This document shows positions 26,708 to 59,318 of a stretch of DNA of 64,000 nucleotides, one piece after another (positions within the stretch are counted from its first letter, which is position 1; the number at the start of each line of letters is the position of its first letter). The notes below the pieces were generated by a model. The model was not told the origin of the DNA. It did no database searches and was given only the letters and a program-made list of their open reading frames with translations. A program made the translations under genes and the position numbers. This DNA is from Saprospiraceae bacterium (lineage in GTDB: Bacteria > Bacteroidota > Bacteroidia > Chitinophagales > Saprospiraceae): positions 1 to 64,000 of the forward strand of contig JAIPBE010000008.1 in assembly GCA_021738725.1 (NCBI GenBank), given 5' to 3'.

Positions 26708-26738
26708 TTGCAAGGATTAACAAGAAGAATTACCTTTG
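26708..26738 (+). promoter_or_regulatory. Promoter of tRNA-Leu(CAG)
   Basis: TTG at 26708-26710, 20-nt spacer, TACCTTTG at 26731-26738. This is a full match to the Bacteroidota TTG/TAnnTTTG promoter and leaves an 80-nt 5' leader before the tRNA. Confidence 0.7.
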
Positions 26739-26818: not shown

Positions 26819-26902
26819 GCCCGTGTGGCGAAATTGGTAGACGCGCTGGCTTCAGGAGCCAGTGGTAGCAATACTGTGCTGGTTCGAGTCCAGTCGCGGG
26901 CA
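26819..26902 (+). tRNA. tRNA-Leu(CAG)
   Basis: An 84-nt leucine tRNA with a class II variable arm. The acceptor stem pairs GCCCGTG (26819-26825) with CGCGGGC (26895-26901). The anticodon stem is ctggc/gccag with loop ttcagga, giving anticodon CAG at 26853-26855 (codon CUG). The T arm has GGTTCGAGTCC. CCA is not encoded. It is followed directly by the palindrome array that repeats its 3' end. Confidence 0.95.
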
Positions 26903-27022
26903 CATAATAAAGACCTCAGCAGAGAGAAGATCTCAGGCTGGGGTTTTTTCATTTCAAGGAACCATCTCCGCGACTGGACGAGAAGTTTATCCGCCGGCTG
27001 GCGGAAGTCCAGTCGCGGGCAC
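26903..27022 (+). repeat. tRNA-derived palindromic unit 1 with terminator
   Basis: A hairpin terminator (26910-26952, tcagc/gctgg core then six T) is followed by a perfect 12-bp stem, ccgcgactggac (26968-26979) with its complement (27007-27018). The inner part is gagaagtttat, then a small ccgcc/ggcgg hairpin. The right arm plus four bases (27007-27022) is identical to the last 16 nt of the tRNA and one base beyond. Confidence 0.85.
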
Positions 27023-27138
27023 AATGAAGACCTTAGCATGAGTGAATCTCAGGCTAGGGTCTTTTCATTTGTAGAAACGAGCTCTGCGACTGGGCGAGAA
27101 GTTTATCCGCCGGCTGGCGGAAGTCCAGTCGCGGGCAC
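27023..27138 (+). repeat. tRNA-derived palindromic unit 2 with terminator
   Basis: Same plan as the unit before it. The terminator stem is gaccttagc/gctagggtc (27028-27066). The outer stem is gcgactgggc (27086-27095) with gtccagtcgc (27123-27132), one G-T-type mismatch. The inner ccgcc/ggcgg hairpin is unchanged. Confidence 0.85.
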
Positions 27139-27355
27139 ATAATAAAGACCTCAGCAGAGAGAAGATCTCATGCTGGGGTCTTTTCATTTCAAGGAACCAT
27201 CTCCGCGACTGGACGAGAAGTTTATCCCGCCGCTACAAAATGGGACCGACGGAGGAGGGACACATTTTGTGCAAGCGGGGAGTCCAAGTTTATCCCGCCG
27301 CTAGGACTTCATCATGAAGGATGAGTGATTAGAAGTCCTCAGGCGGGACGGGCAC
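27139..27355 (+). repeat. tRNA-derived palindromic unit 3, compound form
   Basis: The terminator (27147-27186) and left arm (27203-27214) match unit 1. The inner hairpin is larger: cccgc and gcggg close an acaaaatg/cattttgt stem around a gaccgacggaggaggga core. A second hairpin (aggactt/aagtcct inside tcccgcc/ggcggga, 27292-27348) is inserted inside the right arm, so the unit ends with only cgggcac of the tRNA-like sequence. Confidence 0.8.
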
Positions 27356-27568
27356 AAAGAAACCCTGGCAGAGATGAACTCTCGAGCTAGGGTTTTTTTA
27401 TTTCAAGAGGAGGGAATGCGACTGGGCGAGAAGTTTATCCCGCCGTAGTGGAATGGTCCTGACGGAGGAAGGGCGCATTCCACATGAGCGGGGAGTCCAG
27501 GTTTATCCCGCTCGAGACGTTTCGCGCCGAGGAAAGAGGCGCAGAAACGACCGAAGCGGGACGGGCAC
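27356..27568 (+). repeat. tRNA-derived palindromic unit 4, compound form
   Basis: Terminator 27361-27399 (accctggc/gctagggt), left arm gcgactgggc at 27418-27427, first inner stem tggaatg/cattcca, second hairpin cgtttcgcgcc/ggcgc-a-gaaacg, right end cgggcac at 27562-27568. The inner sequences differ from unit 3, but the frame of conserved blocks is the same. Confidence 0.8.
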
Positions 27569-27684
27569 AAAGGGAAAACCCATGATGAGGGACAATCTTC
27601 TTACCGGACTTTTTTTTGACGAAGCTTACCGTAGATGCATGGATGTCCAAACGGGTAATGACCCACCGAAAGATGCTCCAGGGG

Positions 27685-27714
27685 TTGAAATTATTCGACA
27701 CTTGACTATCTTTG
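27685..27714 (+). promoter_or_regulatory. Promoter of tRNA-Leu(GAG)
   Basis: TTG 27685-27687, 19-nt spacer, TATCTTTG 27707-27714, a full match to the Bacteroidota promoter. The tRNA starts 38 bp later. It shows that the second tRNA is transcribed on its own rather than through the array. Confidence 0.7.
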
Positions 27715-27752
27715 CGCTCCAGTCCTATTTTCAGGAGGGGTATAGTCACGAA

Positions 27753-27835
27753 GCCCGTGTGGCGAAATTGGCAGACGCGCTACCTTGAGGGGGTAGTGTC
27801 CTACGGATGTGCTGGTTCGAGTCCAGTCGCGGGCA
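27753..27835 (+). tRNA. tRNA-Leu(GAG)
   Basis: An 83-nt leucine tRNA with the same acceptor and T arms as the CAG isoacceptor. The anticodon stem ctacc/ggtag encloses ttgaggg, giving anticodon GAG at 27787-27789 (codons CUC and CUU). The variable arm is different. CCA is not encoded. Palindromic units follow here as well. Confidence 0.95.
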
Positions 27836-28044
27836 CACAAAAACCTTGGCGGAGATTTACTCTCTAGTCAGGGTTTTTTCATTTAGGTCAGTTCGCGACT
27901 GGACGAGAAGTTTATCCCGCTGTATTGGAATAGACCGAGGAACGAGGTCGTCATTCCAAACAAGCGGGAAGTCCAAGTTTATCCCGCCGCTAGGACTTCA
28001 TCATGAAGGATGAGTGATTAGAAGTCCTCTGGCGGGGCGGGCAC
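27836..28044 (+). repeat. tRNA-derived palindromic unit 5, compound form
   Basis: Terminator 27842-27878 (aaccttg/cagggtt, T6). Left arm cgcgactggac 27894-27904. First inner stem ttggaat/attccaa with a gacc/ggtc top. The second hairpin (27974-28037) is almost identical over 60 bp to that of unit 3. It ends with cgggcac. Confidence 0.8.
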
Positions 28045-28200
28045 AATACGTAAACCCTGGATGAGATGATGTCTCTACCAGGGTTTTTCATTTTCAGGAA
28101 CTTGTATGCGATTGGACGAGAAGTTTATCCCGCTGCTACGAAATGGGACCGACGGAGGAGGGACACATTTTATGCGAGCGGGAAGTCCAGTCGCGGGCAC
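28045..28200 (+). repeat. tRNA-derived palindromic unit 6 with terminator
   Basis: Terminator 28052-28087 (aaaccctgg/ccagggttt). Left arm gcgattggac 28109-28118, one change. The inner cgaaatg/cattttat insert is close to that of unit 3. The right arm 28185-28200 is a full 16-nt copy of the tRNA 3' end. Confidence 0.8.
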
Positions 28201-28208
28201 CGAAGATG

Positions 28209-28246
28209 AACCCCGGATGAGAGACAATCTCAGTCCGGGGTTTTTC
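28209..28246 (+). terminator. Last terminator of the tRNA-Leu array
   Basis: Stem aaccccgga with tccggggtt and five T. It closes the array; no further left arm follows. Confidence 0.85.
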
Positions 28247-28348
28247 ATTTCCAGGAAGAAAATGACAAGCATTGTTTTTCTATTCAGATGGTGGATACCT
28301 CCAGGGAGTCCGTTCATACACTCGATCTGCTCCAGGTAGAAGTGCAAC

Positions 28349-51570: not shown

Positions 51571-52737
51571 GAGGAGTCCAGGTTCCTGTGTACGTCAAGG
51601 AATCGGGACGCTGTTCAAAGTAAATGGTGGACCCAGTTTGAGATCACGGTAAAGTTTGGCCGTTCAAAGTTCAAAATGGCTGCTGACGCATCCACTGTTC
51701 AACGTTTAAAGTGAAGCACTTTGGACATTGAACAGGAGGCCCCGGCCTCCATTGAACCAGTTGGGCCTACAGGCCCGACTTTGAACGACCAGACGTTTTA
51801 GACGGACCCCAAACCCGGTGACCAACCAGGAACCAGGAACCAGGAACGCAGGAACGCAGGAATCAGGAACCAGGAACACAGGAACACAGGAACCAGGAAT
51901 CTCTTGTCCAACGTTCATAGCATAGCACATTGAACATTGAACAGGAGGCCCCGGCCTCCCTTGAACTGGTTGGGCCTACAGGCCCGACTTTGAACAACCA
52001 GACGTTTTAGACGGACCCCAAACCCGGTGACCAACCAGGAACCAGGAACGCAGGAATCAGGAATCAGGAATCAGGAACCAGGAACCAGAAACGCAGGAAT
52101 CAGGAACCAGGAACCAGGAACACAGGAATCAGGAATCTCTTGTCCAACGTATATGGCATAGGACATTGAACATTGAATAGGAGGACCCGGCCTCCCTTGA
52201 ACTGGTTGGGCCGACAGGCCCGACTTTGAACAACCAGACGTTTTAGACGGACCCCAAACCCGGGGTCCAACCAGGAACCAGAAACGCAGGAATCAGGAAT
52301 CAGGAACCAGGAACCAGAAACGCAGGAATCAGGAACCAGGAACCAGGAACCAGGAACCAGGAACGCAGGAACACAGGAACGCAGGAACGAAGAAAGCAGG
52401 ACCGACGATCGAGGGTCGAGCCCGGACGATCCGCCAGCTGGCGGATGTCCGGATCCAGACTTGGCCCTTAAGGCCAACGTCTGGGGACCGAATATTCCAT
52501 CTAGGTAATTTCACGTTAAACCTTGAACAAGCTGGCCGCCAGGCCACGCCTTAAACTTTGAACGACCAGACGTTTTCGCCGGACTCAAACCCGGGGTCCA
52601 ACCAGGAACAAGGAACACAGGAACCCAGCCTCCGGCTGGCAGGCAGGAACACAGGAACCCAGCCTCCGGCTGGCAGGCAGGAACACAGGAACCAGAAACA
52701 TTTCCCGTCCTTTGTGGTTCTGGTTTTATCACGTCAT
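51571..52737. repeat. Compound minisatellite region: about 220-bp direct repeats carrying a 7-8 bp VNTR
   Basis: At least three long units (about 51705-51905, 51908-52139, 52142-52395) and a diverged fourth (to 52700). Each has a GGAGGCCCCGGCCTCC palindrome, a GGGCCTACAGGCCC palindrome, the block CCAGACGTTTTAGACGGACC, and then a run of 7- or 8-mers of the type CAGGAAC, CAGGAAT, ACAGGAAC, GCAGGAAC. The runs differ in length and order between units. No credible gene lies inside; long frames here have only VNTR-like repetitive composition. The last part contains two GCCTCCGGCTGGCAGGC copies. Confidence 0.8.
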
Positions 52738-57694: not shown

Positions 57695-57725
57695 GGGCTG
57701 GCATCGTTCGGTGCCAGCCCTTTTT
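57695..57725 (+). terminator. Terminator after the beta-helix gene
   Basis: Stem gggctggc with gccagccc (57695-57702 and 57713-57720), T5 tail. An almost identical copy follows the next gene. Confidence 0.85.
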
Positions 57726-59287: not shown

Positions 59288-59318
59288 GGGCTGGCATCGT
59301 TCGGTGCCAGCCCTTTTC
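59288..59318 (+). terminator. Terminator between the tandem paralogues
   Basis: Same stem (gggctggc/gccagccc) and surrounding sequence as the one at 57695-57725, so the terminator was duplicated together with the gene. Confidence 0.85.

Follow-up and report, generated by a model that had tools for sequence, protein, structure and literature searches.

What kind of DNA repeats the 3' end of a tRNA gene and, with each copy, places a strand that pairs with it? The question is raised by an array in a stretch of 64,000 nucleotides (nt) from a Saprospiraceae bacterium (contig JAIPBE010000008.1, positions 1 to 64,000; the window hereafter), in which six palindromic units accompany two intact tRNA-Leu genes. 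We consider it probable that a palindromic repeat, short, mobile and non-autonomous, resides at tRNA gene 3' ends, derives its arms from the target and has been amplified locally to give the array; both the mobility of this repeat and its mechanism are what we infer from the arrangement described below. Support for reading the units as an element comes from asking whether the arms differ from one tRNA to the next, a test that could have gone the other way. A unit consists, in 5' to 3' order, of a left arm, the one-sided bulge GAGAAGTTTA, an inner palindrome, an A at the place of A58, the tRNA tail and the tRNA 3' flank. The 3' strand of the outer helix is the tRNA sequence from nt 59 onward (numbering anchored on the TTCRA T-loop), while its 5' strand is the complement of the same tRNA over nt 59 to about 68.

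The arms follow the tRNA. Among 26 distinct tRNA/tail pairs (one row per pair, the first being kept, from 40 rows), 209 of 312 arm positions were complementary to the cognate tRNA, compared with 151.8 +/- 6.7 when tails were shuffled, and none of 10,000 shuffles reached 209; sites without a same-strand ARAGORN tRNA within 400 nt upstream or without a TTCRA T-loop had been dropped beforehand. The pairs represent sixteen tRNA types by isotype and anticodon, and the complementarity occurs in a single register (195/260 at offset 0 versus 34-86 at the other offsets from -3 to +3). It is enriched at nt 59, 60 and 63-68, weak at nt 62 (p 0.08) and at chance level at nt 69-70, nt 61 being uninformative. 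In the 13 pairs that had been found without any selection on the arm, 97 of 130 positions were complementary versus 63.7 +/- 5.0 in shuffles (0/10,000). The tRNA-Gly units illustrate the correspondence, with ACCC at nt 59-62 of the tRNA and GGGT at the end of the arm. The first-pass annotation had proposed to see whether the arms change to match each tRNA, and this they do. A simpler description of the left arm as a plain copy of the T-stem 5' strand was considered and found insufficient: acceptor nt 66, 67 and 68 pair in 18, 12 and 15 of the 26 pairs, compared with 9.1, 7.0 and 7.6 after shuffling, and this complementarity into the acceptor strand indicates that the arm reproduces the tail in inverted orientation, and not the T-stem alone.

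Other Bacteroidota, and contigs that carry the labels of other phyla, have the core as well; there it lies shortly downstream of genes for tRNA-Leu, Arg, Lys, Thr, Met, Asn, Asp, Pro, Gln and Gly and in the orientation of the tRNA. Some of these contigs, labelled Patescibacteria, Acidobacteria and Neomarinimicrobiota, are metagenome bins and possibly misassigned. When 60 genomes including the source genome were searched for the 13-nt core, 25 sites were obtained outside the source genome, 16 of them with an intact same-strand tRNA upstream, two with a tail without intact tRNA and seven with neither; since a reversed control pattern gave nine matches in the same 60 genomes, these seven are at chance level. 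A contig scan for CTGGACGAGAAGTTTATCC yielded 26 loci, 13 with a tRNA upstream, five with a closing tail and no intact tRNA in view (two of these at contig starts) and eight in which no tail was seen. In 395 genomes of the phylum there were 11 sites outside the source genome (five behind tRNAs, three hairpin-forming without a detected tRNA, three neither), and in 60 Flavobacteriaceae eight sites in five genomes, five of them behind an intact tRNA (Thr twice, Gln, Gly twice), two with a Leu-like or Gly tail and no intact tRNA in the fetched stretch, and one, L243, that is weighed below. These searches overlap and several contigs look identical (L033/L060, L034/L030, L056/L016, L048/L027, L046/L063), so that the counts are not additive. 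At loci L001-L057, where tRNAs on both strands were checked, all hairpin-forming sites with a nearby tRNA share its strand; the site assignments given above (60 genomes and contig scan, phylum and Flavobacteriaceae) considered same-strand tRNAs only. Two sites lie in a genome consisting of two contigs (G571), which makes short-read misassembly unlikely there. A scan of viral contigs for the core gave three matches, none with a hairpin or a tRNA. Two candidates for autonomous long versions (L042, L039) carry core and arm and no second tail at up to two mismatches, and were rejected and read as relics. A loose closing-arm criterion, to which 39 of 71 sites conformed, admits chance sites and was used for no count.

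In the source genome (4.18 Mb, 109 contigs, 97.9% complete) exact copies of the core GAGAAGTTTATCC are limited to the six of the array, at 26980, 27096, 27215 and 27428 after the first tRNA-Leu gene and at 27905 and 28118 after the second. Within the genus (five genomes) there were 22 matches to AGAAGTTTATCCCG at no more than one mismatch, 13 of them at tRNA-Leu genes including a remnant in G003. The remaining nine (one of them L254, also listed as L013) showed neither hairpin nor tRNA and, given 15 matches of the reversed control, look like chance. Two congeners carry one core after tRNA-Leu(cag) and two after tRNA-Leu(gag), and a third carries one after tRNA-Leu(cag), compared with four and two here, so that the array varies within the genus.

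In the window, the tail GTCCAGTCGCGGGCAC occurs exactly at 26888, 27007, 27123, 27821 and 28185, of which 26888 and 27821 are the true tRNA-Leu 3' ends, and no other copy with up to two mismatches exists on either strand of the 64 kb; these five positions, like the six core blocks and the three compound units with split tails recovered by our sequence scan, had been correctly described in the first-pass annotation. In the compound units 3, 4 and 5 a second (A/G)GTTTATCCCGC hairpin, shorter than the first, interrupts the tail (27282, 27495, 27971), which indicates that units nest in one another. The earlier count of six units is also right, and their layout is four between the two tRNA-Leu genes and two after the second rather than around both. 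The tRNA itself stays intact, and each core of the array is followed by a copy of the tRNA tail (split in three units) and its 3' flank, as fits the target duplication suggested before. The inner palindrome is variable, mostly starting with TCC and ending with GGGA, and its loop often resembles GCGNAGCG or GAGGNACGA: a loop such as GCGNAGCG, GAGCGNAG or GAGGNACGA was counted in 22 of 41 distinct inner segments versus 0.9 in mononucleotide shuffles, with a pattern that was written after looking, from segments with a detectable right border, some of which extend beyond the true border. A terminator had been assigned to each unit as its own. The hairpins are indeed present in the window, but behind several other tRNAs the core begins just 14-37 nt 3' of the tRNA, which leaves no room for such a terminator; the terminators are copied tRNA 3' flank and not parts of the element, and they recur unit by unit in the window because the copied flank includes the tRNA terminator.

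Table 1. Features of the tRNA-Leu array in the window, with promoter-like boxes around it and small GIY-YIG genes elsewhere in the source genome (contigs C100, C19 and C108).
Feature	Position	Strand	Description
tRNA-Leu(cag), intact	26819..26903	+	ARAGORN; Rfam RF00005, 55.3 bits; nt 59 onward (26888-26903) is the repeated tail GTCCAGTCGCGGGCAC
Terminator hairpin of tRNA-Leu(cag), source of the copied terminators	26912..26949	+	read from sequence; fold of 26904-26962, z -3.9
Unit 1	26968..27022	+	left arm CCGCGACTGGAC, core GAGAAGTTTA, inner palindrome TCCGCC..GGCGGA, tail copy 27007-27022; arm pairs with tRNA nt 59-70 at 12/12 positions; fold z -5.6
Copied terminator after unit 1	27026..27070	+	compensated stem CCTTAGC/GCTAGGG vs CCTCAGC/GCTGGGG; by eye
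Unit 2	27084..27138	+	arm CTGCGACTGGGC, inner palindrome as in unit 1, tail copy 27123-27138; 10/12 arm positions pair; fold z -3.2
Unit 3, compound	27203..27355	+	core 27215, long inner hairpin; tail interrupted by second AGTTTATCCCGC hairpin starting within 27282-27299; ends GCGGGACGGGCAC; fold of first 148 nt, z -5.0
Unit 4, compound	27416..27568	+	core 27428, second hairpin from 27495
Degenerate terminator	~27571-27620	+	by eye
tRNA-Leu(gag), intact	27753..27836	+	ARAGORN, Rfam RF00005; tail 27821-27836
Unit 5, compound	27893..28044	+	core 27905, inner loop GAGGAACGA, second hairpin from 27971; 11/12 arm positions pair; fold of 27893-28040, z -5.0
Unit 6	28106..28200	+	arm ATGCGATTGGAC, core 28118, long inner hairpin, tail copy 28185-28200; 9/12 arm positions pair; fold z -3.1
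Further terminators	~27147-27190, 27361-27400, 27842-27879 (of tRNA-Leu(gag)), 28053-28089, 28210-28246	+	by eye
TAnnTTTG promoter-like box	26731..26738	+	80 nt before tRNA-Leu(cag)
Second TAnnTTTG promoter-like box	27707-27714	+	38 nt before tRNA-Leu(gag)
Further TAnnTTTG box	26510	-	same motif scan
Small GIY-YIG near tRNA-Arg, with degenerate tRNA copies	C100:32623-32865 (L077)		
Small GIY-YIG near tRNA-Met, with degenerate tRNA copies	C19:18635-18877 (L078)		
Small GIY-YIG near tRNA-Asn, with degenerate tRNA copies	C108:113885-114127 (L076)		

The order of parts within a unit suggests how such a repeat might be made. Entry would involve a break in a tRNA copy at the A58/G59 junction and a duplication of tail and flank, and the target strand would supply the left arm, for instance through fold-back synthesis that starts at the broken end. 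A nick at A58/G59 would leave a bottom-strand 3' end that reads exactly as the left arm, and if this end were extended into the core and the strand then folded back at the inner palindrome, arm, core and tail would result in the order observed. Tandem copies could then arise via break repair between repeats. With less certainty, small GIY-YIG nucleases linked to tRNA genes in the same genomes may make the breaks and can be regarded as a candidate mobiliser; the shared break region near the T-loop, the shared type of palindrome, the occurrence in the same genomes, the relationship to SLX1 and the precedent of phage SegB, considered further below, speak for such a role.

The source genome contains seven matches to the GIY-YIG domain PF01541, all on contigs other than that of the window (C50), and hence no GIY-YIG gene lies inside the units of the window. 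Two of the seven are a 648-amino-acid protein, which by its length we take to be UvrC, and a 490-amino-acid protein; the other five are small open reading frames (ORFs), one with an in-frame stop. Three of these small ORFs lie near an intact same-strand tRNA (Arg, directly adjacent; Met, about 120 bp away; Asn, about 500 bp away with degenerate copies between), and the other two adjoin tRNA-like remnants as judged by eye. The Asn locus (L076, on C108) carries a run of about five degenerate tRNA copies. In congeners, small GIY-YIG ORFs were found after tRNA-Asp, Ala, Phe and Ser, four of 13 loci being without an ARAGORN tRNA. The usual order is intact tRNA, terminator, GIY-YIG gene, degenerate copy of that tRNA and copy of the terminator; in a second arrangement the ORF lies just 5' of the tRNA.

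A profile of the small proteins (A1), built from ten sequences of which nearly all had been chosen for lying beside tRNAs, was used to collect 80 loci from the order and from Flavobacteriaceae (L161-L190 and L211-L240 from profile matches, and 20, L191-L210, from the upper part of the match list; L077 recurs among them as L161). A same-strand tRNA lay within 100 bp at 40 of the 80 loci (17/30, 14/20 and 9/30), and an opposite-strand tRNA at none. This link weakens with the E-value: over 100 matches it was present in 22/33 (<1e-24), then 12/23, 6/17 and 3/27 (>1e-17). Tyr, Arg and Glu occupy invariant positions in the A1 family (R35 and E71 for the latter two), all ten rows match PF01541, and the nearest solved structures are UPF0213 proteins and SLX1 structure-specific nucleases. 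The idea that PF01541 as a whole is a tRNA-linked family was rejected, the 30 loci L131-L160 belonging mostly to other subfamilies and the tRNA link being a property of the A1 subfamily; a scan placed one of their ORFs beside a tRNA (L159) and left eight unplaced, three of which (L152, L154 and L156) were seen by eye to lie behind a tRNA with the anticodon CAT.

Degenerate tRNA copies at these loci also carry palindromes. Inverted repeats with a stem of at least 5 bp, such as TCCCGA..TCGGGA and TCCGCC..GGCGGA, were found in degenerate copies belonging to 27 tRNA entries from 90 loci (L161 repeats L077, and a few, for instance L199, are weak), where they follow, for instance, nt 12, 22, 30, 38 or 56. 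At GIY-YIG loci, 15 of 33 tail copies diverge from the tRNA within 3 nt upstream of nt 59, close to the break point of the window units, and 12 retain at least 12 nt. A palindrome immediately upstream was seen by eye in eight of these 15 (L162, L167, L180, L188, L196, L197, L210, L220), the rest showing point changes or being unclear. In the source genome, 11 of 36 tRNA genes, including the two of the window, have a same-strand partial copy of at least 12 nt within 700 bp. In two degenerate tRNA-Arg copies (L174, L218) the palindrome stands between D-loop nt 22 and 23 with no base lost. Behind tRNA-Leu(caa) of the source genome (L105, ~1608-1645) there is a hairpin with tail-matched arms and without the GAGAAGTTTA bulge. 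The L232 locus has a GIY-YIG gene of another subfamily, flanked by GAGAAGTTTATACTGAGCGAAG and related palindromes (~1371-1490 and 1851-1990), with no tRNA detected; these palindromes may belong to a wider family of the core.

A GIY-YIG gene inside the GAGAAGTTTA units themselves was sought and rejected: tblastn with the single L077 protein against a subset of the loci, a weak test, gave just two matches at unit loci, one at the chance site L052 and one at L053, which adjoins another tRNA about 600 bp away. The A1 profile, applied to unit loci L241-L246 and L248, matched at L243 alone.

Several observations weigh against a mobile repeat with arms taken from its target and mobilised by these nucleases. 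No pair of empty and filled alleles was found among the genomes searched, and no movement was seen; the earlier suggestion of a tRNA-targeting palindromic element is supported by the core behind many tRNA specificities and by the arm that follows the tRNA. Some units pair poorly (3/12 positions in L008, 4 in L246, 5 in L032 and L244). L243, one of the eight Flavobacteriaceae copies, lies away from any detected tRNA, beside a GIY-YIG gene and with non-tRNA arms. Units away from tRNAs and with unrelated arms had been named beforehand as evidence that would speak against a tRNA element, and although the nine near-matches of the genus look like chance, L243 is an exception, because of which the tRNA habit of the core is strong, not absolute. 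None of the tRNA-linked GIY-YIG genes among the 80 loci has a same-strand GAGAAGTYTA within 1 kb (at L185 and L199 it is 1.2-1.4 kb away), and the GIY-YIG gene nearest to such a core, that of L232, is not tRNA-linked. The Flavobacteriaceae genomes that bear units average 3.4 GIY-YIG matches versus 1.9 in the others, not a clear excess (permutation p 0.06, five of 60 genomes). Finally, the complementarity of the arms could be maintained by gene conversion within the hairpin and not be made at insertion.

That last point leads to an account without any transposition, in which tandem duplication, together with gene conversion templated by the hairpin, multiplied an ancient palindrome located after a tRNA gene, and in which vertical descent and occasional lateral transfer of whole tRNA regions spread it. 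Inverted repeats are able to correct each other, the units stand in tandem with common flank copies, and inner hairpins are shared between units 1 and 2 and between units 3 and 6, an inner hairpin of the window type recurring in one congener (L016). However, sixteen tRNA types in many genera are followed by this 13-nt core, with arms that match, and vertical descent from a single site does not yield such a distribution. We regard this account as unlikely, though it is the strongest competitor of the mobile repeat.

A second alternative, close to the structured RNAs released by terminators that the first-pass annotation had also offered, is that transcription of the units yields structured RNAs which the cell retains for some function, for instance as tRNA-like minihelices of T-stem and acceptor or as spare terminators. 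Folded as single strands, units 1, 2 and 6 and the 148-nt stretches taken from units 3 and 5 were each more stable than their dinucleotide shuffles, with z from -3.1 to -5.6 and none of 200 shuffles as stable; the copied terminators, as judged by eye, have diverged with compensated stem changes; and the tail would provide the 3' strand in an acceptor/T-arm minihelix. Against this, a motif scan found no box of the type TAnnTTTG, which we take to be a promoter-like motif, inside the array, and units lie beyond a terminator. In addition, pairing ends at about nt 68, so that the full acceptor stem is not kept, and Rfam matched the window array only with RF00005 at the two tRNAs, two further matches at E up to 1 both lying far below cut-offs. 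The units are also restricted to few genomes, the 16-nt core being matched in 10 of 395 with the source genome and chance sites included. A kept RNA function is improbable, and release by the terminators is not supported.

Only a slight chance is given to palindromes of the repetitive extragenic palindrome (REP) or bacterial interspersed mosaic element (BIME) type moved by a REP-associated tyrosine transposase (RAYT; Y1, HUH). Small hairpins with a conserved single-stranded tag and two Y1_Tnp matches in the source genome would suit such a system, but the 12 Y1_Tnp matches of the five genus genomes have neither a tRNA nor GAGAAGTTTA in the surrounding 2.1-3.3 kb, a GTAG or CGTC tag is absent by inspection, and the conserved part is the internal bulge GAGAAGTTTA. 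Moreover, only six exact copies at a single locus were found, whereas REPs usually exceed 100 per genome according to the available text of PMC2817692.

Ordinary attachment-site debris of phages or integrative elements using the tRNA-Leu 3' end is just as improbable. In the phage and plasmid records, among the matches listed (best 10 of 155 and 10 of 31), only the tRNA-Leu(gag) stretch of the array is matched. To our knowledge, inverted arms and a conserved core are no part of integration scars. Partial tRNA copies are indeed the usual scar of integrating elements in the accessible part of PMC9897764, but inspection by eye of the listed ORFs, on which no profile search was made, revealed no integrase, and the cores within one array are only 116-213 nt apart, too short for an integrase gene.

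If, as we think probable, a mobile repeat with target-derived arms has been amplified here, degenerate tRNA copies and palindromes beside Bacteroidota tRNA genes would become easier to explain, and a role would be given to small GIY-YIG genes that are so far described by a Pfam domain and by an NCBIfam model of a group I intron endonuclease matched below its cut-off. A much bolder reading, which we hold to be possible and rather doubtful, would see a novel class of mobile DNA that has no terminal inverted repeats of its own but copies them from the target whenever it inserts, at A58/G59 and by fold-back priming, with a tRNA-resident GIY-YIG nuclease supplying the break and driving a wider tRNA-parasitic system in Bacteroidota that places palindromes at the loops of displaced tRNA copies.

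Other palindromes were noticed in the window away from the tRNA array, namely two pairs of identical hairpins (57695-57720 and 59288-59313; 51735-51750 and 51944-51959) and, at 52429-52446, a palindrome ATCCGCCAGCTGGCGGAT that resembles the inner palindromes in type.

Comparison with known systems places the units near several kinds of element. Fixed terminal repeats are normally the recognition mark of mobile elements, and arms that match the respective neighbouring tRNA in many genera would require target-templated ends. A miniature inverted-repeat transposable element (MITE) of a known insertion sequence (IS) has fixed terminal inverted repeats that it shares with an autonomous element, whereas the outer inverted repeats vary here with the tRNA, which speaks against such a MITE in a comparison made without a search of an IS database. 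The palindromic elements of Rickettsia and Wolbachia are short palindromes of fixed sequence that insert in functional genes. Like the units, REP/RAYT repeats and MITEs are short hairpins that encode no protein, bear a conserved tag and presumably depend on trans-acting functions for their movement (PMC2817692, PMC3733652, as far as their available text goes). The REP/RAYT systems differ by GTAG/CGTC tags and high copy number, in contrast to the target-following arms and internal bulge seen here. Integrative elements that target tRNA genes, such as integrative and conjugative elements, prophages and islands, likewise exploit a tRNA gene, of which one full and one partial copy remain, but they comprise kilobases and an integrase, compared with about 55-150 nt and inverted arms in the units (PMC9897764, accessible part). 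The GC clusters of yeast mitochondria are also tiny palindromic elements that merge and shuffle, yet they reside in an organelle and have AG or ACT direct end repeats, and tRNA-matched arms go unmentioned in the portion of the source at hand (PMC4478555).

A search of the open-access literature by titles and the openings of abstracts found, among the papers listed, neither tRNA-matched palindromes nor chromosomal tRNA-linked GIY-YIG genes in Bacteroidota, which is weak evidence that such reports are lacking; in the accessible text of a 2006 GIY-YIG survey (PMC1564403), the strings 'bacteroid' and 'palindrom' are absent and 'tRNA' occurs three times. The nearest parallel to the proposed breaks is SegB of phages T4 and T6, a free-standing GIY-YIG nuclease encoded next to tRNA genes, whose DNA break is followed by tandem amplification of a tRNA segment. 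This system belongs to a phage and not to a bacterial chromosome, palindromic repeats or target-derived arms are not described in the available text, and the window array is, unlike it, without a nuclease gene (PMC13096335). Should the arms be shown to be made at insertion, the element would stand outside all kinds known to us; otherwise it would join the short palindromic mobile DNAs.

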